Source: Paramacrobiotus metropolitanus (Eukaryota; Tardigrada; Eutardigrada; Parachela; Macrobiotidae). From it: a stretch of DNA of 64,000 bases. A program made the translations under genes and the position numbers. The DNA lies in contig NW_026570446.1 in NCBI RefSeq assembly GCF_019649055.1, positions 57,203 to 121,202 of the forward strand, written 5' to 3'. Under the pieces are notes generated by a model. That model made no database searches. It had not been told where the DNA came from and was given only the letters and a program-made list of their open reading frames with translations. Positions 18,701 to 63,567 of the stretch are shown here, piece by piece (positions within the stretch are counted from its first letter, which is position 1; each line of letters opens with the position of its first letter).

Positions 18701-19478
18701 AAAAATTTCACCAGAAAAGTTACTGTCAGACGTCACATTTTCGCCATGTTGTCAGAACTCAATAACTACGTGGTGAAACTGCTCCAAAGTCTGCTTTTAA
18801 TAGTTATTCGATGCGCTGAGCACGAATCTGAAATCGGTTTGCAAAAAAAATTTCACCAGAAAAGTTACTGTCAGACGTGTCACATTTTCGGCATGTTGTC
18901 AGAACTCAATAACTACGTGGTGAAACTGCTCCAAAGTCTGCTTTTAAGGGTTATTTCGATGCGCTGAGCACGAATCTGAAATCGGTTTGCAAAAAAATTT
19001 CACCAGAAAAGTTACTGTCAGACGTGTCACATTTTCGCCATGTTGTCAGAACTCAATAACTACGTGGTGAAACTGCTCCAAAGTCTGCTTTTAAGGGTTA
19101 TTCGATGCGCTGAGCACGAATTTCAAGTCGGTTTGCAAAAAAATTTCACCAAAAAAGTTATGGAAAACTTGACTTTTCACCGGCATTTTTGATCTCAATA
19201 ACTACGTGGTGAAACTGCTCCAAAGTCTGCTTTTAAGGGTTATTTGATGCGCTGAGCACGAATCTGAATCGGTTTGCAAAAAAATTTCACCAGAAAAGTT
19301 ACTGTCAGACGTGTCACATTTTCGCCATGTTGTCAGAACTCAATAACTACGTGGTGAAACTGCTCCAAAGTCTGCTTTTAAGTTATTCGATGCGCTGAGC
19401 ACGAATTTCAAGTCGGTTTGCAAAAAAATTTCACCGAAAAAGTTATGGAAAACTTGACTATTCACCGGCATTTTAGAT

Positions 19479-19682
19479 CTCAATAACTACGTGGTGAAAC
19501 TGCTCCAAAGTCTGCTTTTAAGGGTTATTCGATGCGCTGGCATTTTAGATCTCAATAACTACGTGGTGAAACTGCTCCAAAGTCTGGGGTTATTCGATGC
19601 GCTGAGCACGAAAAGTCGGTTTGCAAAAAAATTTCACCGAAAAAAGTTATGGAAAACCTGACTATTCACCGGCATTTTAGAT
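19479..19682 (+). repeat. Two truncated satellite monomers
   Basis: The unit starting at 19479 stops after gatgcgctg and jumps directly to gcattttagat, leaving a 72 bp monomer (19479-19550). The next unit (19551-19682, about 132 bp) lacks the tail of the ctgcttttaa stretch, reading gtctggggttattcg, and part of the following tttcaagtc stretch, reading gaaaagtcgg. These are internal deletions in an otherwise regular array, joined at little or no homology. Confidence 0.85.
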
Positions 19683-28034: not shown

Positions 28035-28144
28035 CTCAATAACTACGTGGTGAAACTGCTCCAAAGTTATTCGATGCGCTGAGCACGAATTTCAAGTTAT
28101 TTCGCGGTTATGGAAAACTTGACTATTCACCGGCATTTTTAGAT
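28035..28144 (+). repeat. Internally deleted satellite monomer, 110 bp
   Basis: The monomer loses ctgcttttaaggg (ccaaag joins directly to ttattcg) and also most of the A-run segment, reading tttcaagttatttcgcgg before ttatggaaaac. The next unit starts in normal register at 28145. It is a type B unit with two internal deletions. Confidence 0.8.
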
Positions 28145-29297
28145 CTCAATAACTACGTGGTGAAACTGCTCCAAAGTCTGCTTTTAAAGGTTATTCGATG
28201 CGCGAGCACGAATCTGAAATCGGTTTGCAAAAAAATTTCACCAGAAAAGTTACTGTCAGACGTGTCACATTTTCGCCATGTTGTCAGAACTCAATAACTA
28301 CGTGGTGAAACTGCTCCAAAGTCTGCTTTGAAGGGTTATTCGATGCGCTGAGCACGAATTTCAAGTCGGTTTGCAAAAAAATTTCACCGAAAAAAGTTAT
28401 GGAAAACTTGACTATTCACCGGCATTTTAGATCTCAATAACTACGTGGTGAAACTGCTCCAAAGTCTGTTTTAAGGGTTATTCGATGCGCTGAGCACGAA
28501 TTTCAAGTCGGTTTGCAAAAAAAATTTCACCGAAAAAAGTTATGGAAAACTTGACTATTCACCGGCATTTTAGATCTCAATAACTACGTGGTGAAACTGC
28601 CCAAAAGTCTGCTTTAAGGGTTATTCGATGCGCTGAGCACGAAATTCAAATCGGTTTGCAAAAAAATTTCACCGAAAAAATTAGGGAAAACCTGACTATT
28701 CACCGGCATTTTTAGGTCTCAATAACTACGTGGTGAAACTGCTCCAAAGTCTGTTTTTAAGGGTTATTCGATGCGCTGAGCACGAATCTGAAATCGGTTT
28801 GCAAAAAAAATTTCACCAGAAAAAGTTACTGTCAGACGTGTCACATTTTCGCCATGTTGTCAGAACTCAATAACTACATGGTGAAACTGCTCCAAAGTCT
28901 GCTTTTAAGCGTTTTTCGATGCGCTGAGCACGAATTTCAAGTCGGTTTGCAAAAAAAATTTCACCGAAAAAAGTTATGGAAAACTTGACTATTCACCGGC
29001 ATTTTTAGATCTCAATAACTACGTGGTGAAACTGCTCCGAAGTCTGCTTTTAAGGGTTATTCGATGCGCTGAGCACGAAATTCAAGTCGGTTTGCAGAAA
29101 AAATTTCACCGAAAAATTATGGAAAACCTGACTATTCACCGGCATTTTTAGGTCTCAATAACTACGTGGTGAAACTGCTCCAAAGTCTGTTTTTAAGGGT
29201 TATTCGATGCGCTGAGCACGAATTTCAAGTCGGTTTGCAAAAAAAATTTCACCGAAAAAAGTTATGGAAAACTTGACTATTCACCGGCATTTTAGAT

Positions 29298-33066: not shown

Positions 33067-34526
33067 CTCAATAACTACGTGGTGAAACTGCCCCAAAGTC
33101 TGCTTTTAAAGGTTATTTGATGCGCTGAGCACGAATCTGAAATCGGTTTGCAAAAAAATTTCACCAGAAAAGTTACTGTCAGACGTGTCACATTTTCGCC
33201 ATGTTGTCAGAACTCAATAACTACGTGGTGAAACTGCTCCAAAGTCTGCTTTTGAAGGTTATTCGATGCGCTGTGCACGAATTTCAAGTCGGTTTGCGAA
33301 AAAAATTTCACCGAAAAAAGTTATGGAAAACTTGACTATTCACCGGCATTTTTAGATCTCAATAACTACGTGGTGAAACGGCTCCAAAGTCTGTTTTTAA
33401 GGGTTATTCGATGCGCTGAGCACGAATTTCAAGTCGGTTTGCAAAAAAAATTTCACCGAAAAAAGCTATGGAAAACTTGACTATTCACCGGCATTTTTAG
33501 ATCTCAATAACTACGTGGTGAAACTGCCCCAAAGTCTGCTTTTAAAGTTTATTTGATGCGTTGAGCACGAATCTGAAATCGGTTTGCAAAAAAAATTTCA
33601 CCAGAAAAAGTTACTGTCAGACGTATCACATTTTCGCCATGTTGTCAGAACTCAATAACTACGTGGTGAAACTGCTCCAAGGTCTGCTTTTGAAGGTTAT
33701 TCGATGCGCTGAGCACGAATTTCAAATCAGTTTGCAAAAAAAATTTCACCGAAAAAAGTTATGGAAAACTTGACTATTCACCGGCATTTTTAGATCTCAA
33801 TAACTACGTGGTGAAACTGCCCCAAAGTCTGCTTTTAAAGGTTATTTGATGCGTTGAGCACGAATCTGAAATCGGTTTGCAAAAAAAATTTCACCAGAAA
33901 AAGTTACTGTCAGACGTGTCACATTTTCGCCATGTTGTCAGAACTCAATAACTACGTGGTGAAACTGCTCCAAAGTCTGCTTTTGAAGGTTATTCGATGC
34001 GCTGTGCACGAATTTCAAGTCGGTTTGCGAAAAAAATTTCACCGAAAAAAGTTATGGAAAACTTGACTATTCACCGGCATTTTTAGATCTCAATAACTAC
34101 GTGGTGAAACGGCTCCAAAGTCTGTTTTTAAGGGTTATTCGATGCGCTGAGCACGAATTTCAAGTCGGTTTGCAAAAAAAATTTCACCGAAAAAAGCTAT
34201 GGAAAACTTGACTATTCACCGGCATTTTTAGATCTCAATAACTACGTGGTGAAACTGCCCCAAAGTCTGCTTTTAAAGGTTATTTGATGCGTTGAGCACG
34301 AATCTGAAATCGGTTTGCAAAAAAAATTTCACCAGAAAAAGTTACTGTCAGACGTATCACATTTTCGCCATGTTGTCAGAACTCAATAACTACGTGGTGA
34401 AACTGCTCCAAGGTCTGCTTTTGAAGGTTATTCGATGCGCTGAGCACGAATTTCAAATCAGTTTGCAAAAAAAATTTCACCGAAAAAAGTTATGGAAAAC
34501 TTGACTATTCACCGGCATTTTTAGAT
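33067..34526 (+). repeat. 5-monomer higher-order repeat, two copies of about 730 bp
   Basis: Unit one spans 33067-33795 (729 bp) and unit two 33796-34526 (731 bp). Each contains, in order: an A unit with actgcccca; a B unit with gctgtgcacg and ggtttgcgaaaaaaa; a B unit with gaaacggctcc and aaaaaagctatgg; an A unit with gatgcgttgag; and a B unit with ccaaggtctgc and tcaaatcagtttgc. Shared rare variants at matching positions show a direct tandem duplication of five monomers. Confidence 0.87.
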
Positions 34527-35584
34527 CTCAATAACTACGTGGTAAAACTGCTCCAAAGTCTGCTCTTAAAGGTGATTCGATGCGTTGAGCACGAATTTCA
34601 AGTCGGTTTGCAAAAAAAATTTCACCGAAAAAAGTTATGGAAAACTTGACTTTTCACCGGCATTTTTGGATATCAATAACATCGTGGTGAAACTCCTCCA
34701 AAGTCTGCTTTTAAGGGTTATTTGATGCGCTGAGCACGAATCTGATATCGGTTTGCAAAAAAAATTTCACCAGAAGAAGTTACTGTCAGACGTGTCACAT
34801 TTTCGCCATGTTGTCAGAACTCAACAACTACGTGGTGAAACTGCTCCAAAGTCTGCTTTTAAGGGTTTTTCGATGCGCTGAGCACGAATTTCAAGTCGGT
34901 TTGCAAAAAAATTTCACCGAAAAAAGTTATGGAAAACTTGACTATTCACCGGCATTTTTAGATCTCAATAACTACGTGGTGAAACTGCTCCAAAGTCTGC
35001 TTTTAAGGGTTATTCGATGCGCTAAGCACGAAATTCAAGTCGGTTTGCAAAAAAAATTTCAACGAAAAAGTTATGGAAAACTTGACTTTTCACCGGCATT
35101 TTTAGATCTCAATAACTACGTGGTGAAACTGCTCCAAAGTCTGCTTTTGAAAGTTTTTCGATGCGCTGAGCACGAATTTCAAGTCGGTTTGCAAAAAAAA
35201 TTTCACCGAAAAAAGTTATGGAAAACTTGACTATTCACCGGCATTTTTAGATCTCAATAACTACGTGGTGAAACTGCTCCAAAGTCTGTTTTTAAGGGTT
35301 ATTCGATGCGCTGAGCACGAATTTCAAGTCGGTTTGCAAAAAAAATTTCACCGAAAAAAGTTATGGAAAACTTGACTATTCACCGGCATTTTTAGATCTC
35401 AATAACTACGTGGTGAAACTGCCCCAAAGTCTGCTTTTAAAGGTTATTTGATGCGTTGAGCACGAATCTGAAATCGGTTTGCAAAAAAAATTTCACCGAA
35501 AAAAGTTATGGAAAACTTGACTATTCACCGGCATTTTTAGATCTCAATAACTACGTGGTGAAACTGCTCCAAAGTCTGCTTTTA
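34527..35584 (+). repeat. Satellite flank to the left of insert copy 1, itself duplicated
   Basis: About seven monomers, mostly type B, running up to the insert junction. Diagnostic variants are atatcaataacatcgtgg (near 34671), agaagaagttactg (near 34775), aactcaacaactacg (near 34817), gcgctaagcacgaaattc (near 35020) and tttgaaagtttttcg (near 35146). The last 814 bp or so matches the left flank of copy 3 (about 41050-41861). The last 578 bp matches the left flank of copy 2, and the last 440 bp that of copy 4. A related stretch with gatatcaataacatcg also occurs at 23857-24240. Confidence 0.85.
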
Positions 35585-35624
35585 TAATAATGGAAGTTTA
35601 TTGTCCTTGCAACGGAGCGGTTGC
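35585..35624 (-). promoter_or_regulatory. LINE 3' end with poly(A) signal and hairpin, copy 1
   Basis: On the minus strand the end reads: hairpin GCAAC-CGCTCC-GTTGC (35609-35624), then AATAAA (35598-35603), then ttccattatta running into the satellite. In some LINE clades the reverse transcriptase recognises a 3' hairpin followed by short tandem repeats. That role here is inference; the stem and hexamer are seen directly. Confidence 0.7.
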
Positions 35625-36102
35625 CCTCTAGGCTTCAGACAGCGGGAAGAAACAGAACGTAACAACAACACCAAGGAATAATGACATGTAAACATCAAGG
35701 TCATCGTTATGTAAAACACGAAGGAAACGTGGCAAAACGACAAGCATTAGCCATCAACATCACACGAAGAGACAGGAACAGAGTAGGAAGTAGGAACTTA
35801 TGTTGCGATTGCGAATAGTATAGTGTTACCTATGTGGAAAAAGGGAGGAGACGATCGCGCTGGGGTCGATGCATAAAACCAAAACCCACATACTAATAAA
35901 GTAATTATTGAATTTCACAGAAATTTTCAAAAAATAAAAACCGTGGGGAAAAGGAAAGCACCGACATTTACGCACGTAATTGCCTTGTAATGTCGTCTGA
36001 CAACTAATTCGCAATCACCGCGAAGTTTAGTACGTAGGGGGAAACAATGTACAGTACGCAGTGACCATGACAACAACAATAATAGCTGCACTAAACAATT
36101 TT

Positions 36103-36577
36103 TTAGATTTTTTTGACGATTTTAGCAGAAGGTAGATCCTGTAGATTCACCGTCTTCAGGGCTTCGGTGAAGGTATTCAACGTGATAAGCAGCAGATGGC
36201 AGCGGAAGTTCGTTCCAGACTGATACAAGGCTGTTGAGATGCGATTCGTGGGTAGTGATAACTGTTCGCCCACAGATGGTTGTCGGTGCCGGTTTGATAG
36301 GACACGGGTGCTTCATAAGACGTTCTGATGTCCTGGTGTTTCCTGCAACAGACTCAAGCACCGCAGCCGAGAATCGAAGTGGTAATACAACCATTTCACC
36401 CATCGGAATTACCCGAAATACTAATTTATACATGAACAACAAAGCTTTTTTCATACATCGGGTGCGGAGATCATCCCATTTAAGTTCTTTCAGACGTTCA
36501 CTGTAATTCAAGACATTGCTGCCGAGTCGTAGAGTTTTGGTGAACCTCCTTTGCATCGTTCAATTTCATTTGTCGAC
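36103..36577 (-). pseudogene. LINE ORF2 C-terminal fragment, copy 1, frameshifted
   Basis: The minus strand encodes the C-terminal tail of a LINE reverse-transcriptase protein. An RRFTKTLRLGSN segment is followed by YSERLKELKWDDLRTR, a MYKLVFRV helix-like segment, NTRTSERL and VWNELPLPSAAY. The order RRFTK..., YxERL, R-T, WNxLP is the usual tail after the polymerase domain. The endonuclease and the catalytic YxDD region are absent. Compared with copies 2-5, a gt pair is missing at about 36184 (gtgataagcagc against gtgatgtaagcagc), which shifts the frame after PLPSAAY. The frame at the 5' end is also shifted, because the T-run at about 36550 is one base short. If the frame were continuous it would end at a TAA at 36103-36105, after AKIVKKI. 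Not a functional protein. Confidence 0.8.
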
Positions 36578-37246
36578 TTTTCAACGAAAAAAGTTATGGA
36601 AAACTTGACTTTTCACCGGCATTTTTGGATCTCAATAACTACGTGGTGAAACTGCTCCAAAGTCTGCTTTTAAGGGTTATTCGATGCGCTAAGCACGAAA
36701 TTCAAGTCGGTTTGCAAAAAAATTTCAACGAAAAGTTATGGAAAACTTGACTTTTCACCGGCATTTTTAGATCTCAATAACTACGTGGTGAAACTGCTCC
36801 AAAGTCTGCTTTTGAAAGTTTTTCGATGCGCTGAGCACGAATTTCAAGTCGGTTTGCAAAAAAAATTTCACCGAAAAAAGTTATGGAAAACTTGACTATT
36901 CACCGGCATTTTTAGATCTCAATAACTACGTGGTGAAACTGGTCCAAAGTCTGTTTTTAAGGGTTATTCGATGCGCTGAGCACGAATTTCAAGTCGGTTT
37001 GCAAAAAAATTTCACCGAAAAAGTTATGGAAAACTTGACTATTCACCGGCATTTTAGATCTCAATAACTACGTGGTGAAACTGCCCCAAAGTCTGCTTTT
37101 AAAGGTTATTTGATGCGTTGAGCACGAATCTGAAATCGGTTTGCAAAAAAAATTTCACCGAAAAAAGTTATGGAAAACTTGACTATTCACCGGCATTTTT
37201 AGATCTCAATAACTACGTGGTGAAACTGCTCCAAAGTCTGCTTTTA
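36578..37246 (+). repeat. Satellite spacer between insert copies 1 and 2
   Basis: 669 bp, about 4.6 monomers. The non-integral number fits a monomer broken at both insert junctions. It carries gcgctaagcacgaaattc (near 36688), tttgaaagtttttcg (near 36810), actggtccaaag and a final actgcccca / gatgcgttgag A-like unit. This is the same order as the left flank of copy 1, so the spacer is a copy of that flank. Confidence 0.88.
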
Positions 37247-37286
37247 TAATAATGGAAGTTTATTGTCCTTGCAACGGAGCGGTTGC
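37247..37286 (-). promoter_or_regulatory. LINE 3' end with poly(A) signal and hairpin, copy 2
   Basis: The hairpin with 5 bp GCAAC/GTTGC arms lies at 37271-37286 and AATAAA (minus strand) at 37259-37264. The ATTATTA end abuts satellite at 37246. Sequence identical to copy 1. Confidence 0.7.
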
Positions 37287-37589
37287 CCTCTAGGCTTCAG
37301 ACAGCGGGAAGAAACAGAACGTAACAACAACACCAAGGAATAATGACATGTAAACATCAAGGTCATCGTTATGTAAAACACGAAGGAAACGTGGCAAAAC
37401 GACAAGCATTAGCCATCAACATCACACGAAGAGACAGGAACAGAGTAGGAAGTAGGAACTTATGTTGCGATTGCGAATAGTATAGTGTTACCTATGTGGA
37501 AATAGGGAGGGAGACGATCGCGCTGGGGTCGATGCATAAAACCAAAACCCACATACTAATAAAGTAATTATTGAATTTCACAGAAATTT

Positions 37590-38242
37590 TCAAAAAATAA
37601 AAACCGTGGGGAAAAGGAAAGCACCGACACTTACGCACGTAATTGCCTTGTAATGTCGTCTGACAACTAATTCGCAATCACCGTGAAGTTTAGTACGTAG
37701 GGGAAACAATGTACAGTACGCAGTGACCATGACAACAACAATAATAGCTGCACTAAACAATTTTTTTGATTTTTTGACGATTTTAGCAGAAGGTAGATCC
37801 TGTAGATTCACCGTCTTCAGGGCTTCGGTGAAGGTATTCAACGTGATGTAAGCAGCAGATGGCAGCGGAAGTTCGTTCCAGACTGATACAAGGCTGTTGA
37901 GATGCGATTCGTGGGTAGTGATAACTGTTCGCCCACAGATGGTTGTCGGTGCCGGTTTGATAGGACACGGGTGCTTCATAAGACGTTCTGATGTCCTGGT
38001 GTTTCCTGCAACAGACTCAAGCACCGCAGCCGAGAATCGAAGTGGTAATACAACCATTTCACCCATCGGAATTACCCGAAATACTAATTTATACATGAAC
38101 AACAAAGCTTTTTTCATACATCGGGTGCGGAGATCATCCCATTTAAGTTCTTTCAGACGTTCACTGTAAATCAAGACATTGCTGCCGAGTCGTAGAGTTT
38201 TGGTGAACCTCCTTTGCATCGTTCAATTTCATTTGTCGACTT
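37590..38242 (-). pseudogene. LINE ORF2 C-terminal fragment, copy 2, with read-through
   Basis: The best-preserved central frame, 209 codons from an internal ATG at 38219. Residues 3-12 carry RRFTKTLRLG, 18-30 YSERLKELKWDDL, 75-76 the R-T pair, and 113-118 VWNELP, followed by TLNTFTEALKTVNLQDL. These are the expected landmarks of a LINE reverse-transcriptase tail. After AKIVKK the frame depends on A-run length. Here it reads SKKLF and continues about 60 codons into what is normally 3' UTR, so the end is probably artefactual; copy 5 stops at KKIKKIV. A one-base-short T-run near 38214 puts the start out of frame with the 5' junction. The catalytic domain is missing, so no enzyme activity is expected. 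Confidence 0.8.
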
Positions 38243-41200
38243 TTTCAACGAAAAAAGTTATGGAAAACTTGACTTTTCACCGGCATTTTTGGATCTCAAT
38301 AACTACGTGGTGAAACTGCTCCAAAGTCTGCTTTTAAAAGTTATTCGATGCGCTGAGCACGAATTTCAAGTCGGTTTGCAAAAAAATTTCACCGAAAAAA
38401 GTTATGGAAAACTTGACTTTTCACCGGCATTTTTGGATCTCAATAACTACGTGGTGAAACAACTCCAAAGTCTGCTTTTAAGGGTTGTTCGATGCGCTGA
38501 GCACGAATCTGAAATCGGTTTGCAAAAAAATTTCACCAGAAAAGTTACTGTCAGACGTGTCACATTTTCGCCATGTTGTGAGAACTCAATAACTACGTGG
38601 TGAAACTGCTCCAAAGTCTGCTTTTAAGGGTTATTCGATGCGCTGAGCACGAATTTTAAGTCGGTTTGCAAAAAAAATTCACCGAAAAAGTTATGGAAAA
38701 CTTGACTTTTCACCGGCATTTTTGGATCTCAATAACTACGTGGTGAAACAGCTCCAAAGTCTGCTTTTAAGAGTTATTCGATGCGCTGAGCACGAATCTG
38801 AAATTGGTCTGCAAAAAAAATTTCACCAGAAAAGTTACTGTCAGACGTGTCACATCTTCGCCATGGTGTCAGAACTCAATAACTACGTGGTGAAACTGCT
38901 CCAAAGTCTGCTTTTAAGGGTTATTCGATGCGCTGAGCACGAATTTTAAGTCGGTTTGCAAAAAAATTTCAACGAAAAAAGTTATGGAAAACTTGCATTT
39001 TCACCCCGGCATTTTTGGATCTCAATAACTACGTGGTGAAACTGCTCCAAAGTCTGCTTTTAAAGTTATTCGATGCGCTGAGCACGAATTTCAAGTCGGG
39101 CTTGCAAAAAAAATTTCACCGAAAAGTTATGGAAAACTTGCATTTTCACCGGCATTTTGGATCTCAATAACTACGTGGTGAAACAGCTCCAAAGTCTGCT
39201 TTTAAGGGTTATTCGATGCGCTGAGCACGAATCTGAAATCGGTTTGCAAAAAAAATTTCACCAGAAAAAGTTACTGTCAGACGTGTCACATTTTCGCCTT
39301 GGTGTCAGAACTCAATAACTACGTGGTGAAACTGCTCCGAAGTCTGCTTTTAAGGGTTATTCGATGCGCTGAGCACGAATTTTAAGTCGGTTTGCAAAAA
39401 AAATTTCAACGAAAAAAGTTATGGAAAACTTGCATTTTCACCGGCATTTTTGGATCTCAATAACTACGTGGTGAAACTGCTCCAAAGTCTGCTTTTAAAA
39501 GTTATTCGATGCGCTGAGCACGAATTTTAAGTCGGGTTGCAAAAAAAATTTCACCGAAAAAAGTTATGGAAAACTTGACTTTTCACCGGCATTTTGATCT
39601 CAATAACTACGTGGTGAAACAGCTCCAAAGTCTGCTTTTAAGAGTTATTCGATGCGCTGAGCACGAATCTGAAATTGGTTCGCAAAAAAATTTCACCAGA
39701 AAAGTTACTGTCAGACGTCACATCTTCGCCATGGTGTCAGAACTCAATAACTACGTGGTGAAACTGCTCCAAAGTCTGCTTTTAAGGGTTATTCGATGCG
39801 CTGAGCACGAATTTTAAGTCGGTTTGCAAAAAAATTTCAACGAAAAAAGTTATGGAAAACTTGCATTTTCACCGGCATTTTGGATCTCAATAACTACGTG
39901 GTGAAACTGCTCCAAAGTCTGCTTTTAAAGTTATTCGATGCGCGGAGCACGAATTTCAAGTCGGGTTGCAAAAAAAATTTCACCGAAAAGTTATGGAAAA
40001 CTTGCATTTTCACCGGCATTTTTGGATCTCAATAACTACGTGGTGAAACAGCTCCAAAGTCTGCTTTAAGGGTTATTCGATGCGCTGAGCACGAATCTGA
40101 AATCGGTTTGCAAAAAAATTTCACCAGAAAAAGTTAAAGTCTCGTCAGATCGATGCGCTGAGCACGAATCTGAAATCGGTTTGCAAAAAAAATTTCACCA
40201 GAAAGTTACCACACGTGTCACATTTTCGTGTTGTCAGAACTCAATAACTACGTGGTGAAACTGTCCAAAGTCTGCTTTTAAGGGTTATTCGATGCGCTGA
40301 GCACGAATTTAAGTCGGTTTGCAAAAAAAATTTCAACGAAAAAAGTTATGGAAAACTTGCATTTTCACCGGCATTTTGATCTCAATAACTACGTGGTGAA
40401 ACTGCTCCAAAGTCTGCTTTTAAAGTTATTCGATGCGCTGAGCACGAATCTCAAGTCGGGTTGCAAAAAAAATTTCACCGAAAAGTTATGGAAAACTTGC
40501 ATTTTCACCGGCATTTTGATCTCAATAACTACGTGGTGAAACAGCTCCAAAGTCTGCTTTTAAGGGTTATTCGATGCGCTGAGCACGAATCTGAAATCGG
40601 TTTGCAAAAAAAATTTCACCAGAAAAAGTTACTGTCAGACGTGTCACATTTTCGCCTTGGTGTCAGAACTCAATAACTACGTGGTGAAACTGTCTGAAGT
40701 CTTGCTTTTAAGGGTTATTCGATGCGCTGAGCACGAATTTTAAGTCGGTTTGCAAAAAAAATTTCAACGAAAAAAGTTATGGAAAACTTGCATTTTCACC
40801 GGCATTTTTGGATCTCAATAACTACGTGGTGAAACTGCTCCAAAGTCTGCTTTTAAAAGTTATTCGATGCGCTGAGCACGAATTTTAAGTCGGTTGCAAA
40901 AAAAATTTCACCGAAAAAAGTTATGGAAAACTTGACTTTTCACCGGCATTTTTGGATCTCAATAACTACGTGGTGAAACTGCTAAAAAGTCTGCTTTAAA
41001 TGGTTATTCGATGCGCTGAGCACCAATCTGAAATTGGTTTGCAAAAAAAATTTCACCAGAAGAAGTTACTGTCAGACGTGTCACATTTTCGCCATGTTGT
41101 CAGAACTCAACAACTACGTGGCGAAACTGCTCCAAAGTCTGCTTTTAAGGGTTTTTCGATGCGCTGAGCACGAATTTCAAGTCGGTTTGCAAAAAAATTT

Positions 41201-41861
41201 CACCGAAAAAAGTTATGGAAAACTTGACTATTCACCGGCATTTTAGATCTCAATAACTACGTGGTGAAACTGCTCCAAAGTCTGCTTTTAAGGGTTATTC
41301 GATGCGCTAAGCACGAAATTCAAGTCGGTTTGCAAAAAAAATTTCAACGAAAAGTTATGGAAAACTTGACTTTTAACCGGCATTTTAGATCTCAATAACT
41401 ACGTGGTGAAACTGCTCCAAAGTCTGCTTTTGAAAGTTTTTCGATGCGCTGAGCACGAATTTCAAGTCGGTTTGCAAAAAAAATTTCACCGAAAAAAGTT
41501 ATGGAAAACTTGACTATTCACCGGCATTTTAGATCTCAATAACTACGTGGTGAAACTGCTCCAAAGTCTGTTTTAAGGGTTATTCGATGCGCTGAGCACG
41601 AATTTCAAGTCGGTTTGCAAAAAAAATTTCACCGAAAAAGTTATGGAAAACTTGACTATTCACCGGCATTTTTAGATCTCAATAACTACGTGGTGAAACT
41701 GCCCCAAAGTCTGCTTTTAAAGGTTATTTGATGCGTTGAGCACGAATCTGAAATCGGTTTGCAAAAAAATTTCACCGAAAAAGTTATGGAAAACTTGACT
41801 ATTCACCGGCATTTTAGATCTCAATAACTACGTGGTGAAACTGCTCCAAAGTCTGCCTTTA
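38243..41861 (+). repeat. Satellite spacer between insert copies 2 and 3
   Basis: 3.6 kb, about 25 monomers. The first 650 bp or so (B, B, A with gggttgttcg, B with ttttaagtcgg, A with cagctcc and cacatcttcgccatgg) matches the right flank of copy 5, and its first part that of copy 4. The middle is the right-hand subfamily: gaattttaagtcgg, cttgcattttcacc and ggatct. From about 41050 to 41861 it switches back to the left-hand subfamily and matches the 34770-35584 flank of copy 1, including aactcaacaactacg and gcgctaagcacgaaattc. This spacer therefore joins two subfamilies. Confidence 0.85.
40028..40239 (+). repeat. Rearranged double-partial monomer, 212 bp
   Basis: A type A unit runs normally to the gaaaaagtta stretch and then reads aagtctcgtcagatcgatg, jumping back into the gatgcgctgagcacg core. 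A second partial A unit follows, with a disturbed gaaagttaccacacgtgtc and a ccat deletion. This is a back-jump of roughly half a monomer, consistent with out-of-register exchange or an assembly join. Confidence 0.78.
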
Positions 41862-41901
41862 TAATAATGGAAGTTTATTGTCCTTGCAACGGAGCGGTTG
41901 C
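41862..41901 (-). promoter_or_regulatory. LINE 3' end with poly(A) signal and hairpin, copy 3
   Basis: The hairpin arms GCAAC/GTTGC lie at 41886-41901, AATAAA (minus) at 41874-41879, and the short ATTATTA end touches the satellite at 41861. Confidence 0.7.
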
Positions 41902-42278
41902 CCTCTAGGCTTCAGACAGCGGGAAGAAACAGAACGTAACAACAACACCAAGGAATAATGACATGTAAACATCAAGGTCATCGTTATGTAAAACACGAAG
42001 GAAACGTGGCAAAACGACAAGCATTAGCCATCAACATCACACGAAGAGACAGGAACAGAGTAGGAAGTAGGAACTTATGTTGCGATTGCGAATAGTATAG
42101 TGTTACCTATGTGGAAAAAGGAGGAGACGATCGCGCTGGGGTCGATGCATAAAACCAAAACCCACATACTAATAAAGTAATTATTGAATTTCACAGAAAT
42201 TTTCAAAAATAAAAACCGTGGGGAAAAGGAAAGCACCGACACTTACGCACGTAATTGCCTTGTAATGTCGTCTGACAA

Positions 42279-42857
42279 CTAATTCGCAATCACCGTGAAG
42301 TTTAGTACGTAGGGGAAACAATGTACAGTACGCAGTGACCATGACAACAACAATAATAGCTGCACTAAACAATTTTTTTTGATTTTTTTGACGATTTTAG
42401 CAGAAGGTAGATCCTGTAGATTCACCGTCTTCAGGGCTTCGGTGAAGGTATTCAACGTGATGTAAGCAGCAGATGGCAGCGGAAGTTCGTTCCAGACTGA
42501 TACAAGGCTGTTGAGATGCGATTCGTGGGTAGTGATAACTGTTCGCCCACAGATGGTTGTCGGTGCCGGTTTGATAGGACACGAGTGCTTCATAAGACGT
42601 TCTGATGTCCTGGTGTTTCCTGCAACAGACTCAAGCACCGCAGCCGAGAATCGAAGTGGTAATACAACCATTTCACCCATCGGAATTACCCGAAATACTA
42701 ATTTATACATGAACAACAAAGCTTTTTTCATACATCGGGTGCGGAGATCATCCCATTTAAGTTCTTTCAGACGTTCACTGTAATTCAAGACATTGCTGCC
42801 GAGTCGTAGAGTTTTGGTGAACCTCCTTTTGCATCGTTCAATTTCATTTGTCGACTT
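42279..42857 (-). pseudogene. LINE ORF2 C-terminal fragment, copy 3, longest open frame to the junction
   Basis: This copy keeps one frame from the 5' truncation point through the whole conserved tail. Its N-terminal side reads STNEIERCKRRFTKTL, which agrees with the usual lead-in to the RRFTK motif and shows that the T-run in copies 1 and 2 has lost a base. YSERLKELKWDDL, NTRTSERL and VWNELPLPSAAYITLNTF follow. After VKKIKK an extra A moves the frame to NCLVQLLLLL and it closes at 42279; copy 5 stops two codons after KKIKK. It is open but lacks the polymerase and endonuclease domains and has no start context, so it is a fragment and not a gene. Confidence 0.8.
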
Positions 42858-43673
42858 TTTCAACGAAAAAAGTTATGGAAAACTTGACTTTTCACCGGCA
42901 TTTTTGGATCTCAATAACTACGTGGTGAAACTGCTTCAAAGTCTGCTTTTAAAGTTATTCGATGCGCTGAGCACGAATTTCAAGTCGGTTTGCAAAAAAA
43001 ATTTCACCGAAAAAAGTTATGGAAAACTTGACTTTTCACCGGCATTTTTGGATCTCAATAACTACGTGCTGAAACTGCTCCAAAGTCTGCTTTTAAAAGT
43101 TATTCGATGCGCTGAGCACGAATTTCAAGTCGGGTTGCAAAAAAAATTTCACCGAAAAAAGTTATGGAAAACTTGCATTTTCACCGGCATTTTTGGATCT
43201 CAATAACTACGTGGTGAAACTGCTCCAAAGTCTGCTTTTGAAAGTTTTTCGATGCGCTGAGCACGAATTTCAAGTCGGTTTGCAAAAAAATTTTCACCGA
43301 AAAAAGTTATGGAAAACTTGACTATTCACCGGCATTTTTAGATCTCAATAACTACGTGGTGAAACTGGTCCAAAGTCTGTTTTTAAGGGTTATTCGATGC
43401 GCTGAGCACGAATTTCAAGTCGGTTTGCAAAAAAATTTCACCGAAAAAAGTTATGGAAAACTTGACTATTCACCGGCATTTTAGATCTCAATAACTACGT
43501 GGTGAAACTGCCCCAAAGTCTGCTTTTAAAGGTTATTTGATGCGTTGAGCACGAATCTGAAATCGGTTTGCAAAAAAAATTTCACCGAAAAAAGTTATGG
43601 AAAACTTGACTATTCACCGGCATTTTTAGATCTCAATAACTACGTGGTGAAACTGCTCCAAAGTCTGCTTTTA
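42858..43673 (+). repeat. Satellite spacer between insert copies 3 and 4
   Basis: 816 bp, about 5.6 monomers. The first part is B units with cttgcattttcacc and gggttgc (right-hand subfamily). From about 43238 (tttgaaagtttttcg) it matches the last 440 bp of the copy 1 left flank, including actggtccaaag, actgcccca and gatgcgttgag. It is a mosaic of a right flank and a left flank. Confidence 0.85.
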
Positions 43674-43713
43674 TAATAATGGAAGTTTATTGTCCTTGCA
43701 ACGGAGCGGTTGC
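43674..43713 (-). promoter_or_regulatory. LINE 3' end with poly(A) signal and hairpin, copy 4
   Basis: The hairpin lies at 43698-43713 and AATAAA (minus) at 43686-43691. The ATTATTA end is unchanged, although the bases just outside the stem differ (gttgccccctct). Confidence 0.7.
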
Positions 43714-44018
43714 CCCCTCTAGGCTTCAGACAGCGGGAAGAAACAGAACGTAACAACAACACCAAGGAATAATGACATGTAAACATCAAGGTCATCGTTA
43801 TGTAAAACACGAAGGAAACGTGGCAAAACGACAAGCATTAGCCATCAACATCACACGAAGAGACAGGAACAGAGTAGGAAGTAGGAACTTATGTTGCGAT
43901 TGCGAATAGTATAGTGTTACCTATGTGGAAAAAGGGAGGGAGACGATCGCGCTGGGGTCGATGCATAAAACCAAAACCCACATACTAATAAAGTAATTAT
44001 TGAATTTCACAGAAATTT

Positions 44019-44671
44019 TCAAAAATAAAAAACCGTGGGGAAAAGGAAAGCACCGACACTTACGCACGTAATTGCCTTGTAATGTCGTCTGACAACTAAT
44101 TCGCAATCACCGTGAAGTTTAGTACGTAGGGGAAACAATGTGCAGTACGCAGTGACCATGACAACAACAATAATAGCTGCACTAAACAATTTTTTTGATT
44201 TTTTGACGATTTTAGCAGAAGGTAGATCCTGTAGATTCACCGTCTTCAGGGCTTCGTGAAGGTATTCAACGTGATGTAAGCAGCAGATGGCAGCGGAAGT
44301 TCGTTCCAGACTGATACAAGGCTGTTGAGATGCGATTCGTGGGTAGTGATAACTGTTCGCCCACAGATGGTTGTCGGTGCCGGTTTGATAGGACACGGGT
44401 GCTTCATAAGACGTTCTGATGTCCTGGTGTTTCCTGCAACAGACTCAAGCACCGCAGCCGAGAATCGAAGTGGTAATACAACCATTTCACCCATCGGAAT
44501 TACCCGAAATACTAATTTATACATGAACAACAAAGCTTTTTTTCATACATCGGGTGCGGAGATCATCCCATTTAAGTTCTTTCAGACGTTCACTGTAATT
44601 CAAGACATTGCTGCCGAGTCGTAGAGTTTTGGTGAACCTCCTTGCATCGTTCAATTTCATTTGTCGACTTT
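44019..44671 (-). pseudogene. LINE ORF2 C-terminal fragment, copy 4, two frameshifts
   Basis: The same reverse-transcriptase tail as the other copies, but broken. An extra T in the run near 44540 separates the RRFTK...RTRCMKK part from the MYKLVFRV...VWNELP part. A missing g near 44256 (gcttcgtgaagg) shifts the frame after NTFTK. The remaining downstream frame then reads EALKTVNLQDLPSAKIVKKSKK and runs into the 3' UTR, as in copy 2. Not functional. Confidence 0.78.
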
Positions 44672-45197
44672 TTTCAACGAAAAAGTTATGGAAAACTTGA
44701 CTTTTCACCGGCATTTTTGGATCTCAATAACTACGTGGTGAAACTGCTCCAAAGTCTGCTTTTAAAAGTTATTCGATGCGCTGAGCACGAATTTCAAGTC
44801 GGTTTGCAAAAAAATTTCACCGAAAAAAGTTATGGAAAACTTGACTTTTCACCGGCATTTTTGATCTCAATAACTACGTGGTGAAACAACTCCAAAGTCT
44901 GCTTTTAAGGGTTGTTCGATGCGCTGAGCACGAATCTGAAATCGGTTTGCAAAAAAATTTCACCAGAAAAGTTACTGTCAGACGTGTCACATTTTCGCCA
45001 TGTTGTGAGAACTCAATAACTACGTGGTGAAACTGCTCCAAAGTCTGCTTTTAAGGGTTATTCGATGCGCTGAGCACGAATTTTAAGTCGGTTTGCAAAA
45101 AAAATTCACCGAAAAAAGTTATGGAAAACTTGACTTTTCACCGGCATTTTTAGATCTCAATAACTACGTGGTGAAACTGCTCCAAAGTCTGCTTTTA
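44672..45197 (+). repeat. Satellite spacer between insert copies 4 and 5
   Basis: 526 bp, about 3.6 monomers, the shortest spacer. Order: B, B, A with gggttgttcg and ccatgttgtgagaac, B with ttttaagtcgg and aaaaaaattcacc. This equals the right flank of copies 2 and 5 and runs straight into the copy 5 junction. The left flank of copy 5 (gacttttcaccgg) therefore differs from that of copies 1-4 (gactattcaccgg), although the junction itself is the same. Confidence 0.88.
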
Positions 45198-45237
45198 TAA
45201 TAATGGAAGTTTATTGTCCTTGCAACGGAGCGGTTGC
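45198..45237 (-). promoter_or_regulatory. LINE 3' end with poly(A) signal and hairpin, copy 5
   Basis: The hairpin lies at 45222-45237 and AATAAA (minus) at 45210-45215. The ATTATTA end abuts satellite at 45197. Sequence as in the other copies. Confidence 0.7.
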
Positions 45238-45705
45238 CCTCTAGGCTTCAGACAGCGGGAAGAAACAGAACGTAACAACAACACCAAGGAATAATGACAT
45301 GTAAACATCAAGGTCATCGTTATGTAAAACACGAAGGAAACGTGGCAAAACGACAAGCATTAGCCATCAACATCACACGAAGAGACAGGAACAGAGTAGG
45401 AAGTAGGAACTTATGTTGCGATTGCGAATAGTATAGTGTTACCTATGTGGAAAAGGGAGGAGACGATCGCGCTGGGGTCGATGCATACAAAACCAAAACC
45501 CACATACTAATAAAGTAATTATTGAATTTCATAGAAATTTTCAAAAAATAAAAAAACCGTGGGGAAAAGGAAAGCACCGACACTTACGCACGTAATTGCC
45601 TTGTAATGTCGTCTGACAACTAATCTGCAATCACTGTGAAGTTTAGTACGTAGGGGAAACAATGTACAGTACGCAGTGACCATGACAACAACAATAATAG
45701 CTGCA

Positions 45706-46196
45706 CTAAACAATTTTTTTGATTTTTTTGACGATTTTAGCAGAAGGTAGATCCTGTAGATTCACCGTCTTCAGGGCTTCGGTGAAGGTATTCAACGTGA
45801 TGTAAGCAGCAGATGGCAGCGGAAGTTCGTTCCAGACTGATACAAGGCTGTTGAGATGCGATTCGTGGGTAGTGATAACTGTTCGCCCACCGATGGTTGT
45901 CGGTGCCGGTTTGATAGGACACGGGTGCTTCATAAGACGTTCTGATGTCCTGGTGTTTCCTGCAACAGACTCAAGCACCGCAGCCGAGAATCGAAGTGGT
46001 AATACAACCATTTCACCCATCGGAATGACCCGAAATACTAATTTATACATGAACAACAAAGCTTTTTTTCACATCGGGTGCGGAGATCATCCCATTTAAG
46101 TTCTTTCAGACGTTCACTGTAATTCAAGACATTGCTGCCGAGTCGTAGAGTTTTGGTGAACCTCCTTTTGCATCGTTCAATTTCATTTGTCGACTT
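45706..46196 (-). pseudogene. LINE ORF2 C-terminal fragment, copy 5, frameshifted
   Basis: The MYKLVFRV...NTRTSERL...VWNELPLPSAAYITLNTF...QDLPSAKIVKKIKKIV frame runs from 46059 to a stop at 45706. This short KKIKKIV ending is the most plausible original C-terminus, because the other copies differ from it only by A-run length. Upstream, the RRFTK part is in another frame owing to the loss of two bases near 46070 (tttcacatcggg against tttcatacatcggg). As in copy 3, the T-run at about 46166 has the full length, so the 5' part is open to the junction. The catalytic domain is absent. Confidence 0.8.
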
Positions 46197-49100
46197 TTTC
46201 AACGAAAAAAGTTATGGAAAACTTGACTTTTCACCGGCATTTTTGGATCTCAATAACTACGTGGTGAAACTGCTCCAAAGTCTGCTTTTAAAAGTTATTC
46301 GATGCGCTGAGCACGAATTTCAAGTCGGTTTGCAAAAAAAATTTCACCGAAAAAAGTTATGGAAAACTTGACTTTTCACCGGCATTTTTGGATCTCAATA
46401 ACTACGTGGTGAAACAACTCCAAAGTCTGCTTTTAAGGGTTGTTCGATGCGCTGAGCACGAATCTGAAATCGGTTTGCAAAAAAAATTTCACCAGAAAAA
46501 GTTACTGTCAGACGTGTCACATTTTCGCCATGTTGTGAGAACTCAATAACTACGTGGTGAAACTGCTCCAAAGTCTGCTTTTAAGGGTTATTCGATGCGC
46601 TGAGCACGAATTTTAAGTCGGTTTGCAAAAAAAAATTCACCGAAAAAAGTTATGGAAAACTTGACTTTTCACCGGCATTTTTGGATCTCAATAACTACGT
46701 GGTGAAACAGCTCCAAAGTCTGCTTTTAAGAGTTATTCGATGCGCTGAGCACGAATCTGAAATTGGTTCGCAAAAAAAATTTCACCAGAAAAAGTTTCTG
46801 TCAGACGTGTCACATCTTCGCCATGGTGTCAGAACTCAATAACTACGTGGTGAAACTGCTCCAAAGTCTGCTTTTAAAAGTTATTCGATGCGCTGAGCAC
46901 GAATTTCAAGTCGGGTTGCAAAAAAAATTTTACCGAAAAAAGTTATGGAAAACTTGCATTTTCACCGGCATTTTGGATCTCAATTAACTACGTGGTGAAA
47001 CAGCTCCAAAGTCTGCTTTTAAGGGTTATTCGATGCGCTGAGCACGAATCTGAAATTGGTTAGCAAAAAAAATTTCACCAGAAAAGTTACTGTCAGACGT
47101 CACATTTTCGCCATGGTGTCCGAACTCAATAACTACGTGGTGAAACTGCTCCAAAGTCTGCTTTTAAGGGTTATTCGATGCGCTGAGCACGAATTTTAAG
47201 TCGGTTTGCAAAAAAAATTTCAACGAAAAAAGTTATGGAAAACTTGCATTTTCACCGGCATTTTTGGATCTCAATAACTACGTGGTGAAACTGCTCCAAA
47301 GTCTGCTTTTAAAAGTTATTCGATGCGCTGAGCACGAATTTCAAGTTGGGTTGCAAAAAAAATTTCACCGAAAAAAGTTATGGAAAACTTGACTTTTCAC
47401 CGGCATTTTTGGATCTCAATAACTACGTGGTGAAACTGCTAAAAAGTCTGCTTTAAATGGTTATTCGATGCGCTGAGCTCGAATCTGAAATTGGTTTGCA
47501 AAAAGAATTTCACCAGAAAAAGTTACTGTCAGACGTGTCACATTTTCGCCATGTTGTGAGAACTCAATAACTACGTTGTGAAACTGCTCCAAAGTCTGCT
47601 TTAAAGGGTTATTCGATGCGCTGAGCACGAATTTCAAGTCGGTTTGCAAAAAAAATTTCAACGCAAAAAGTTATGGAAAACTTGCATTTTCACCGGCATT
47701 TTTGGATCTCAATAACTACGTGGTGAAACTGCTCCAAAGTCTGCTTTTAAAAGTTATTCGATGCGCTGAGCACGAATTTCAAGTCGGGTTGCAAAAAAAA
47801 TTTCACCGAAAAAGTTATGGAAAACTTGACTTTTCACCGGCATTTTTGGATCTCAATAACTACGTGGTGAAACTGCTAAAAAGTCTGCTTTAAATGGTTA
47901 TTCGATGCGCTGAGCACGAATCTGAAATCGGTTTGCAAAAAAAATTTCACCAGAAAAAGTTACTGTCAGACGTGTCACATTTTCGCCATGTTGTCAGAAC
48001 TCAATAACTTCGTGGTAAAACTGCTCAAAGGTCTGCTTTTAAGGGTTATTCGATGCGCTGAGCACGAATTTTAAGTCGGTTTGCAAAAAAAATTTCACCT
48101 GAAAAAGTTATGGAAAACTTGACTTTTCACCGGCATTTTTGGATCTCAATAACAACGTGGTGAAACAGCTCCAAAGTCTGCTTTTAAGGGTTATTCGATG
48201 CGCTGAGCACGAATCTGAAATCGGTTTGCAAAAAAAATTTCACCAGAAAAGTTACTGTCAGACGTGTCACATTTTCGCCATGTTGTGACAACTCAATAAC
48301 TACGTGGTGAAACTGCTCCAAAGTCTGCTTTAAGGGTTATTCGATGCGCTGAGCACGAATTTTAAGTCGGTTTGCAAAAAAAATTCACCGAAAAAGTTAT
48401 GGAAAACTTGACTTTTCACCGGCATTTTTGGATCTCAATAACTACGTGGTGAAACAGCTCCAAAGTCTGCTTTTAAGAGTTATTCGATGCGCTGAGCACG
48501 AATCTGAAATTGGTTCGCAGAAAAAATTTCACCAGAAAAGTTACTGTCAGACGTGTCACATTTTCGCCATGGTGTCAGAACTCAATAACTACGTGTTGAA
48601 ACTGCTCCAAAGTCTCCTTTTAAGGGTTATTCGATGCGCTGAGCACGAATTTTGAGTCGGTTTGCAAAAAAATTTCAACGAAAAAGTTATGGAAAACTCG
48701 CATTTTCACCGGCATTTTGGATCTCAAATAACTACGTGGTGAAACTGCTCCAAAGTCTGCTTTTAAAAGTTATTCGATGCGCTGAGCACGAATTTCAAGT
48801 CGGGTTGCAAAAAAAATTTTACCGAAAAAAGTTATGGAAAACTTGCATTTTCACCGGCATTTTTGGATCTCAATAACTACGTGGTGAAACAGCTCCAAAG
48901 TCTGCTTTTAAGGGTTATTCGATGCGCTGAGCACGAATCTGAAATTGGTTAGCAAAAAAAATTTCACCAGAAAAAGTTACTGTCAGACGTGTCACATTTT
49001 CGCCATGGTGTCCGAACTCAATAACTACGTGGTGAAACTGCTCCAAAGTCTGCTTTTAAAAGTTATTCGATGCGCTGAGCACGAATTTCAAGTCGGGTTG

Positions 49101-55083: not shown

Positions 55084-55276
55084 CTCAATAACTACGTGGT
55101 GAATAAAGTCTACGATGCGCTGAGCACGAATCTGAGGTTTGCTTTCACCAGAAAAGTTACTGTCAGACGTGTTTAAGGTTATTCGATGCGCTGAGCACGA
55201 ATCTGAAATCGGTTTGCAAAAAAATTTCACCAGAAAAGTTACTGTCAGACGTCACATTTTCGCCATGTTGTCAGAA
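55084..55276 (+). repeat. Rearranged monomer pair, 193 bp
   Basis: The unit begins normally, skips from gtggtgaa to taaagtctacgatgcgctg, loses the A-run (tctgaggtttgctttcacc), and reaches gtcagacgtgt. It then jumps back to ttaaggttattcgatg and completes a normal A unit. It therefore contains the gatgcgctgagcacg core twice within one and a third monomer lengths. Confidence 0.8.
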
Positions 55277-58200
55277 CTCAATAACTACGTGGTGAAACTG
55301 CTCCAAAGTCTGCTTTTAAGGGTTATTCGATGCGCTGAGCACGAATTTTAAGTCGGTTTGCAAAAAAATTTCACCGAAAAAGTTATGGAAAACTTGCATT
55401 TTCACCGGCATTTTGATCTCAATAACTACGTGGTGAAACAGCTCCAAAGTCTGCTTTTAAGAGTTATTCGATGCGCTGAGCACGAATCTGAAATCGGTTT
55501 GCAAAAAAAATTTCACCAGAAAAGTTACTGTCAGACGTGTCACATTTTCGCCATGTTGTGAGAACTCAATAACTACGTGGTGAAACTGCTCCAAAGTCTG
55601 CTTTTAAGGGTTATTCGATGCGCTGAGCACGAATTTTAAGTCGGTTTGCAAAAAAAATCACCGAAAAAAGTTATGGAAAACTTGACTTTTCACCGGCATT
55701 TTGATCTCAATAACTACGTGGTGAAACAGCTCCAAAGTCTGCTTTTAAGAGTTATTCGATGCGCTGAGCACGAATCTGAAATCGGTTTGCAAAAAAGTTT
55801 CACCAGAAAGTTACGTCAGACGTGTCACATTTTCGCCATGTTGTCAGAACTCAAGAACTTCGTGGTGAAACTGCTCCAAAGTCTGCTTTAAGGGTTATTC
55901 GATGCGCTGAGCACGAATTTTAAGTCGGTTTGCAAAAAAAATTTCACCGAAAAAGTTATGGAAAACTTGCATTTTCACCGGCATTTTGATCTCAATAACT
56001 ACGTGGTGAAACAGCTCCAAAGTCTGCTTTAAGAGTTATTCGATGCGCTGAGCACGAATCTGAAATTGGTTCGCAAAAAAATTTCACCAGAAAAGTTACT
56101 GTCAGACGTGTCACATTTTCGCCATGTTGTCAGAACTCAATAACTACGTGGTGAAACTGCTCCAAAGTCTGCTTTTAAGGGTTATTCGATGCGCTGAGCA
56201 CGAATTTTAAGTCGGTTTGCAAAAAAAATTTCACCGAAAAAGTTATGGAAAACTTGACTTTTCACCGGCATTTTTGATCTCAATAACTACGTGGTGAAAC
56301 TGTTCCAAAGTCTGCTTTTAAGGGTTATTCGATGCGCTGAGCACGAATTTCGTCGGTTTGCAAAAAAATTTCACCGAAAAGTTATGGAAAACTTGTATTT
56401 TCACCGCATTTTTGGATCTCAATAACTACGTGGTGAAACAGCTCCAAAGTCTGCTTTTAAGGGTTATTCGATGCGCTGAGCACGAATCTGAAATCGGTTT
56501 GCAAAAAAAATTTCACCAGAAAAAGTTACTGTCAGACGTGTCACATTTTCGCCATGTTGTGAGAACTCAATAACTACGTGGTGAAACTGCTCCAAAGTCT
56601 GCTTTTAAGGTTATTCGATGCGCTGAGCACGAATTTGAAATCGGTTTGCAAAAAAATTTCACCAGAAAGTTACTGTCAGACGTGTCACATTTTCGCCATG
56701 TTGTCAGAACTCAATAACTACGTGGTGAAACTGCTCCAAAGTCTGCTTTTAAGGGTTATTCGATGCGCTGAGCACGAATTTCAAGTCGGGTTGCAAAAAA
56801 AATTTCACCGAAAAAAGTTATGGAAAACTTGCATTTTCACCGGCATTTTTGGATCTCAATAACTACGTGGTGAAACAGCTCCAAAGTCTGCTTTTAAGGG
56901 TTATTCGATGCGCTGAGCACGAATCTGAAATTGGTTCGCAAAAAAAATTTCACCAGAAAAAGTTACTGTCAGACGTGTCACATTTTCGCCATGTTGTGAG
57001 AACTCAATAACTACGTGGTGAAACTGCTCCAAAGTCTGCTTTTAAGGGTTATTCGATGCGCTGAGCACGAATTTTAAGTCGGTTTGCAAAAAAAAATCAC
57101 CGAAAAAGTTATGGAAAACTTGACTTTTCACCGGCATTTTTGATCTCAATAACTACGTGGTGAAACTGCTCCAAAGTCTGCTTTATAAGTTATTCGATGC
57201 GCTGAGCACGAATTTCAAGTCGGTTTGCAAAAAAATTTCACCGAAAAAGTTATGGAAAACTTGCATTTTCACCGGCATTTTTGATCTCAATAACTACGTG
57301 GTGAAACTGCTCCAAAGTCTGCTTTTAAGGGTTATTCGATGCGCTGAGCACGAATTTGAAATCGGTTTGCAAAAAAAATTTCACCAGAAAAGTTATGGAA
57401 ATGTCACATTTTCGCCATGTTGAGATCTCAATAACTACGTGGTGAAACTGCTCCAAAGTCTGCTTTTAAGGTTATTCGATGCGCTGAGCACGAATCTGAA
57501 ATCGGTTTGCAAAAAAATTTCACCAGAAAAGTTACTGTCAGACGTGTCACATTTTCGCCATGTTGTCAGAACTCAATAACTACGTGGTGAAACTGCTCCA
57601 AAGTCTGCTTTTAAGGGTTATTCGATGCGCTGAGCACGAATTTAAGTCGGTTTGCAAAAAAAATCACCGAAAAGTTATGGAAAACTTGCATTTCACCGGC
57701 ATTTTGATCTCAATAACTACGTGGTGAAACAGCTCCAAAGTCTGCTTTTAAGGGTTATTCGATGCGCTGAGCACGAATCTGAAATCGGTTTGCAAAAAAA
57801 ATTTCACCAGAAAAGTTACTGTCAGACGTCACATTTTCGCCATGTTGTAGAACTCAATAACTACGTGGTGAAACTGCTCCAAAGTCTGCTTTTAAGGGTT
57901 ATTCGATGCGCTGAGCACGAATTTTAAGTCGGTTTGCAAAAAAAATTTCACCGAAAAAAGCTATGGACAACTTGATTTTCACCGGCATTTTTGATCTCAA
58001 TAACTACGTGGTGAAACTGCTCCAAAGTCTGCTTTTAAAGTTATTCGATGCGCTGAGCACGAATTCAAATCGGTTTGCAAAAAAAATTTCACCGAAAAGT
58101 TATGGAAAACTTGCATTTTCACCGGCATTTTGATCTCAATAACTACGTGGTGAAACTGCTCCAAAGTCTGCTTTTAAGGGTTATTCGATGCGCTGAGCAC

Positions 58201-63527: not shown

Positions 63528-63567
63528 GCATTTTCACCGGCATTCATTCACCGGCATTTTTGATCTC
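63528..63567 (+). repeat. Small direct duplication inside a B monomer
   Basis: The sequence reads ttttcaccggcattcattcaccggcatttttgatc, so ttcaccggcatt is present twice in tandem. This is a local slippage-type duplication in an otherwise normal B unit. Confidence 0.8.

Follow-up and report, generated by a model that had tools for sequence, protein, structure and literature searches.

The DNA analysed here is a stretch of 64,000 nucleotides (nt) from a contig of the tardigrade Paramacrobiotus metropolitanus (NW_026570446.1), called the window below and numbered 1-64000, from which alone all background counts were drawn. A single satellite unit of about 144-145 bp spans nearly the entire window, as found with Tandem Repeats Finder. 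When the whole window was parsed against two monomer types derived from it, A (145 bp) and B (148 bp), with unrelated stretches permitted, the output consisted of 423 monomers or monomer pieces, six short unrelated stretches of 1-13 bp, and five long ones of 994-999 bp. The five long stretches are copies of one insert, likely a fragment of a long interspersed nuclear element (LINE), which appears to have entered the array once and to have been amplified together with the satellite around it, and which lies at a boundary between two sub-types of the array.

All five copies (Table 1) have the same orientation, with lengths of 994, 996, 996, 998, and 999 bp and start-to-start distances of 1662, 4615, 1812, and 1524 bp. 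In every one of them, the left junction falls at position 42 of monomer A and the right junction at position 94, and 51 bp of the monomer are absent. The left junction reads CTGCTTTTA and, across the border, TAATAATGG, while the right one reads TTTGTCGAC and then TTTTTCAACG, the length of the T run being uncertain; these letters do not vary among the copies, other than in the lengths of runs and at a single base left of copy 3. A blastn search of the window with copy 3 (E values up to 0.01) returned only itself and the other four, at 98.2-99.0% identity. In the alignment, any two inserts show, per kb, 4-13 substitutions as well as 6-15 gap columns, and homopolymer runs hold many of the gaps; copies 1-4 are separated from one another by 4-6 substitutions, and copy 5 from these by 10-13.

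In this assembly, the insert coincides with the boundary between a left-type and a right-type sub-array. Monomers were labelled L, R, Q, and B after the flanks had been viewed, and the label counts are therefore partly circular: A monomers with A at both positions 126 and 142 make up 117 of the 135 typed to the left of copy 1 (the remainder being 12 with right-type ends and 6 mixed) and 0 of the 67 to the right of copy 5, and a right-only label, meaning either CA at 123-124 plus right-type ends in an A monomer or A at 23 in a B monomer, is found in 0 of 246 typed monomers on the left side, against 52 of 122 on the right side. A label-free scan for a change point was based on whole-monomer substitution distances among full monomers past position 12000, with the cluster excluded and at least eight monomers retained on each side. 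The best split fell at the insert both for A monomers (between 35398 and 46249; 170 monomers, 154 splits) and for B monomers (between 34672 and 46394; 113 monomers, 97 splits). The runner-up splits adjoin the best ones and are close to them (341.4 vs 342.8 for A; 253.9 vs 255.3 for B), and for B monomers of the right domain, distances within the domain are barely tighter than those between domains (5.15 vs 5.37). Within the cluster, right-type sequence stands on the right side of every insert. Positions 1-12000 hold a B-rich domain that shifts gradually, near 10-12 kb, to an A-richer pattern where no insert is present, so boundaries also occur without inserts.

The monomers that flank the inserts were given lower-case letters (Table 1) and compared by counting substitutions only. 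Toward the insert, the left flank of copy 1 is composed of A*, a, b, c, d, and a broken e. The same series precedes copy 3 with three differences, whereas copy 2 is preceded by a, b, c, d, and e with one difference and copy 4 by b, c, d, and e with two. Monomer d is apparently a B-then-A hybrid: its start resembles the B monomers at 30892, 33503, 33796, and 34234 at three marker positions, and its end is of type A. All four occurrences of its full marker set in the window adjoin the left side of copies 1-4, and no A monomer elsewhere in the window comes closer than six differences. On the right, copies 2, 4, and 5 are followed by r, f, g, and h, free of substitutions but for a hybrid base in copy 4; after copy 3 come r and f with one substitution, and after copy 1 only the 52-bp piece r, which leads directly into a. 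Two ordinary right-domain monomers, at 50033 and 51783, also carry the marker set of r. The insert of copy 5 is the most diverged of the five, yet to its right, r, f, g, and h carry no substitution relative to those of copy 2, the two rates being unequal.

The closeness of the left flanks was assessed against all non-overlapping pairs of monomer runs of the same pattern elsewhere in the window, which average about 4-4.6 substitutions per 144 bp. Over four monomers, substitutions per 144 bp average 0.25 between the flanks of copies 1 and 2 and 0.51 between those of copies 2 and 3, and in neither case is any of the 14 background pairs as close. Over three monomers, the mean is 0.33 for copies 2 and 4 (0 of 371 background pairs as close) and 0.67 for copies 1 and 4 as well as for copies 3 and 4 (1 of 371 each). 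Copies 1 and 3 share five monomers at 0.40, a length for which the background offers no pair.

The spacers between the inserts measure 668, 3619, 816, and 526 bp, or 4.61, 24.96, 5.63, and 3.63 monomers at 145 bp. The nearly constant fraction in three of them, already pointed out in the original prediction, corresponds to a fixed broken-monomer part of 52+42 = 94 bp (0.65 monomer); spacer 2 departs from it because of an out-of-register scar at 40137, where positions 1-111 of a B monomer are followed by 13 foreign bases (40137-40149) and then by B positions 51-148. By base counts, each spacer starts with right-domain alleles and ends with left-domain alleles, changing once before the next insert. 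The hybrid joins, mapped at 36631, 40958, 43199, and 45012, have a different switch point in all four spacers and are all in register. The markers on which they are based include 61A in spacer 1 (2 of 104 monomers on the left, 0 of 67 on the right) and 42G in spacer 3 (8/105 left, 0/61 right). In the spacer 2 hybrid at 40958, the right-type 5′ part carries 27A (0/106 left, 3/55 right) and 41A (0/111 left, 4/56 right), followed by the left-type marker 105G (10/110 left, 0/56 right), and the spacer 4 hybrid at 45012 carries 73T (0/103 left, 36/59 right) and 126T (7/104 left, 66/67 right), followed by 142A (101/102 left, 0/26 right). Since out-of-register scars exist elsewhere in the array, such joins at the switch points would have shown. 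The four switches thus look like footprints of misaligned homologous exchange between one copy's right flank and the left flank of a second copy.

Table 1. Inserts, reference flanks, and spacers of the cluster (window positions)
Feature	Position	Strand	Description
Insert copy 1	35585-36578	-	5′-truncated LINE-like fragment; 3′ end at 35585; parse and alignment
Insert copy 2	37247-38242	-	Parse and alignment; left flank has c variant 25G, as copy 4
Insert copy 3	41862-42857	-	Parse and alignment; 192 stop-free codons from truncation point, minus strand
Insert copy 4	43674-44671	-	Parse and alignment
Insert copy 5	45198-46196	-	Parse and alignment; most diverged, 10-13 substitutions vs others
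Left flank reference	34820-35584	+	Monomers A*, a, b, c, d and broken e (positions 1-42)
Right flank reference	46197-46834	+	Broken r (positions 94-145) and f, g, h, i
Monomer d	35398-35542	+	Apparent B-then-A hybrid; marker set four times in window, also 37060, 41678, 43487
Spacer 1	36579-37246	+	r, then a-b-c'-d-e; switch point between r position 142 and next monomer position 44 (vs f) or 61 (vs whole right domain)
Spacer 2	38243-41861	+	r f g h i, 13 whole monomers and 2 pieces, hybrid B, A* a b c d e
Spacer 2 hybrid B monomer	40958-41105	+	Switch lies after position 41 (with less confidence, after 78) and before 105
Spacer 3	42858-43673	+	r f ff followed by b c' d e; switch point between ff position 142 and b position 42
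Spacer 4	44672-45197	+	r f g, hybrid monomer 45012-45155, e; switch between positions 126 and 142

This arrangement is best explained by one insertion that was amplified with its flanks through misaligned in-register exchange, rather than by five insertions, because the junctions are the same in 5/5 copies, the flanks are shared nearly free of substitutions, and monomer d is private to copies 1-4; we put the probability of this reading at roughly three in four (about 0.77). This assembly directly shows the five copies, the identical junctions, the shared flanks, the four hybrid spacers, and the coincidence with the boundary. A single 5′-truncated LINE-like fragment would have inserted once into the 145/148-bp satellite array, at a site that would have lost about 51 bp of one monomer plus an uncertain number of whole monomers; the insert sits at the junction of the left-type and right-type sub-arrays. 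Misaligned homologous exchange in register, by unequal crossing over between sisters or homologues or by break-induced replication, would then have linked the right flank of a copy with another copy's left flank on at least four occasions, and the outcome would be five copies parted by right-to-left hybrid spacers. It is plausible that the pair of copies 1 and 2 arose first, that this block was duplicated to give copies 3 and 4, and that copy 5 came last; variant 25G of monomer c, present in copies 2 and 4 where copies 1 and 3 have C, suggests that a two-copy block was itself duplicated.

The original prediction, made from the letters of this DNA, had described five inserts of about 1 kb with common orientation, ends, and junctions, had argued from these that they are not independent insertions, and had proposed that they were co-amplified with their satellite flanks by unequal exchange. 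These points are borne out by the parse, which also reproduces the start-to-start distances, and by the alignment of the five inserts and their flanks; exchange can now be stated more sharply, with four different switch points mapped. The position of the insert on a sub-type boundary goes beyond what that prediction contained. The common truncation point and 3′ end likewise stand, with the correction that the coding strand is the minus strand, so that the 3′ end of the element is at the left and its truncated 5′ end at the right of each insert. What is not supported is the proposal that a new composite satellite unit has formed, since the five irregular copies make up one 10.6-kb cluster with no fixed period and no other match in the window. 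A tandem composite or higher-order unit was rejected within these 64 kb on the irregular distances and the lack of further copies.

Several observations weigh against amplification by exchange. The differences among the inserts are mostly private to a single copy, close to a star-like pattern, and few columns group copies; in a G-rich stretch near a G run, an extra G is common to copies 2 and 4 and an A to copies 3 and 5. Copies 4 and 5 are far apart in sequence though they are neighbors. To the left of copy 5 there is e alone, which is not diagnostic, preceded by one left-type base (142A), and the switch in spacer 4 hangs on this base. Spacer 3 requires an extra step, in which f is followed by ff without g-h-i. 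The identity of the right flanks is weaker when taken alone: 4 of 2753 background ABA triples are as close, as are 2 of 550 ABAB quadruples for copies 2 and 5, and for the right flank of copy 3, single-monomer comparisons are uninformative, with 798-878 of 17955 background comparisons as close. Finally, homopolymer shortenings amount to 1.3-20.9 per kb in 2-kb bins across the window, a range that we take as a sign of noise in the assembly and that implies that consensus error is common and assembly joins are possible.

Among the alternatives, break-induced replication or template switching in place of reciprocal crossing over is a variant of amplification by exchange and takes clearly the smaller share of it. 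It also yields in-register joins and has been proposed for higher-order satellite repeats in the account given by PMC8997354, and the additional discontinuity from f to ff in spacer 3 would fit it; nothing separates it from crossing over, the window showing only the duplicated product. The main rival to exchange is assembly error, in which noisy reads of one or two haplotypes (for example, two plus three copies) would have been laid head to tail, so that some copies would be alleles or false duplicates. The block of copies 1-2 and that of copies 3-5 are both bordered by left-type sequence on one outer side and by right-type sequence on the other, as two alleles would be; spacer 2 holds a damaged stretch (40137-40240); and a mis-join of noisy reads within satellite would likewise be in register. 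Homopolymer shortenings are, moreover, not only frequent but patchy, being low (1.3-3.9 per kb) at 30-36, 42-44, 46-48, and 50-52 kb and 6.8-20.9 per kb elsewhere, which suggests uneven polishing. However, spacers 1, 3, and 4, which lie within the two blocks, join right to left at differing points, so several copies per haplotype would still be needed. The substitutions that separate the copies also speak against such an error, as does the longest exact match between copies of the unit (700 bp on the left, insert, and 500 bp on the right), which is 260-673 bp among the ten pairs; in addition, no more than some 2.7 kb of right flank separates copy 2 from the hybrid at 40958, which would be short for a haplotype join. 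We consider assembly error unlikely and infer that the five copies were made by exchange in the genome. Independent insertions of a site-specific element at one monomer position, of the kind that some non-LTR (long terminal repeat) elements make, are highly improbable and were rejected, as a preferred target could account for a common 3′ junction but not for one 5′ truncation point and one 51-bp gap in 5/5 copies, and most copies have private flank monomers in common.

The insertion itself would have been accompanied by a deletion. Comparison of junction phases in all five copies revealed no target-site duplication; the only duplication shorter than a monomer that fits the phase is one of 94 bp, whose first 52 bp contain three mismatches in copies 1-4 and two in copy 5, and whose remaining 42 bp are uninformative, being near-identical in any pair here. 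A target-site duplication of this length hidden by the array is therefore unlikely. LINE insertions with target deletions are known. Because the 51-bp gap is defined only modulo whole monomers, the insertion may have removed far more, and a large deletion would account jointly for the missing part-monomer, the absent duplication, and the sharp boundary. Alternatively, the insert may have come first and the sides then drifted apart, since exchange across the insert duplicates or removes it. Thirdly, the insert might by chance have hit a boundary that was already present. A doubtful extension of the second course is that the insert is both a barrier to and a recorder of satellite homogenization: as exchange across it must duplicate or delete it, the two sides would diverge into sub-arrays, having evolved apart on the surviving chromosomes, and the four hybrids would give the number of duplicative exchanges across it that survived.

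The minus strand of the insert contains stop-free stretches that start from the truncation point in copy 3 (192 codons; 3 of 500 shuffles as long) and reach 210 codons in copy 2 (0 of 100 shuffles), 145 codons in copy 1 and 141 in copy 4 (for either, 3 of 100), and 120 codons in copy 5 (11 of 100). The reading includes stretches such as RRFTK...YSERLKELKWDDLRTRC...MYKL and SVWNELP, which appear to resemble the C-terminal tail of CR1/L2/Jockey-like non-LTR reverse transcriptases, and an AATAAA motif can be read near the left (3′) end of the insert. A Pfam search gave only below-cut-off matches to unrelated families, a PDB search only two designed repeat proteins at E values of 0.02-0.1, and no relative was found in viral contigs; a structure model has a mean pLDDT (predicted local distance difference test) of 35. 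The fragment would fall downstream of the reverse transcriptase core, where Pfam may lack a model. LINE identity, part of the original prediction, is thus likely, judged by the C-terminal motifs, and neither Pfam nor PDB yielded a usable match.

Elsewhere in the array, there are insert-free segmental duplications of 10 monomers (10256-11699 and 18180-19537, mean 0.81 substitutions per monomer) and of 9 monomers (13142-14436 and 15737-17030, mean 0.78), so block amplification has also occurred outside the cluster. Out-of-register joins or short foreign stretches of 1-13 bases are found at 19479-19743, 28035-28250, 40028-40240, 55084-55300, and 63545-63560, with scars at 19538, 28098, 40137, 55104, and 63545; most of these five places are surrounded by several small deletions, and they are either end-joining scars or poorly corrected assembly patches. 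Searches at the sequence level were negative within their respective scopes: none of four 20-base strings occurred in any paper in a literature text search, one 20-base monomer string had no exact match in the viral and genome contigs searched, 1501 bp around copy 2 had no match in phages, and Rfam at gathering score gave zero matches in 34500-47500. Satellites of 145 bp have been described in the plants Euphrasia (PMC9372453) and Passiflora (PMC11049143), the likeness being one of unit length.

Both unequal exchange and retroelements in satellites are already established, as far as the sources describe them (PMC8997354, PMC12046899, PMC11620609). Under the unequal exchange model of how satellites and higher-order repeats evolve (Smith 1976, in the account of PMC8997354), misalignment during exchange copies several distinct monomers as one block, as here. 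In contrast to that model, the block in the window is tagged by a non-satellite insert, its switch points can be read singly, and no regular insert-containing unit is formed. Copies of the ATHILA retroelements have reportedly been duplicated together with flanking satellite. The invasion of satellite centromeres by ATHILA in Arabidopsis, followed by satellite homogenization, is similar, in the outline given by PMC12046899, in that a retroelement in a satellite array is copied locally by array recombination, whereas the element here is a LINE-like 5′-truncated fragment, not an LTR element, and coincides with a sub-type boundary. Centromeres of the Drosophila simulans clade, described in PMC11620609 as consisting mainly of complex satellite with insertions of G2/Jockey-3 and other transposable elements, offer a further likeness; that description, as far as it goes, does not mention one insertion amplified with its flanks, as is proposed here. 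A literature search of limited coverage turned up no case in which the copies of one insertion mark the border between sub-arrays together with four readable exchange points. The kind of event is known, and its coincidence with the boundary is the interesting part.

There is debate, as presented in PMC8997354, over whether satellite arrays expand by crossing over, break-induced replication, or end joining. The debate draws mostly on arrays in which single events are hard to see, and a non-satellite tag on a boundary exposes such events, including the flank monomers that were joined, their register, and their position to within about 16-64 bp. The insert may thus record exchanges that reshaped the array, and if it is true that it hinders homogenization, mobile elements would help to split satellite arrays into domains.

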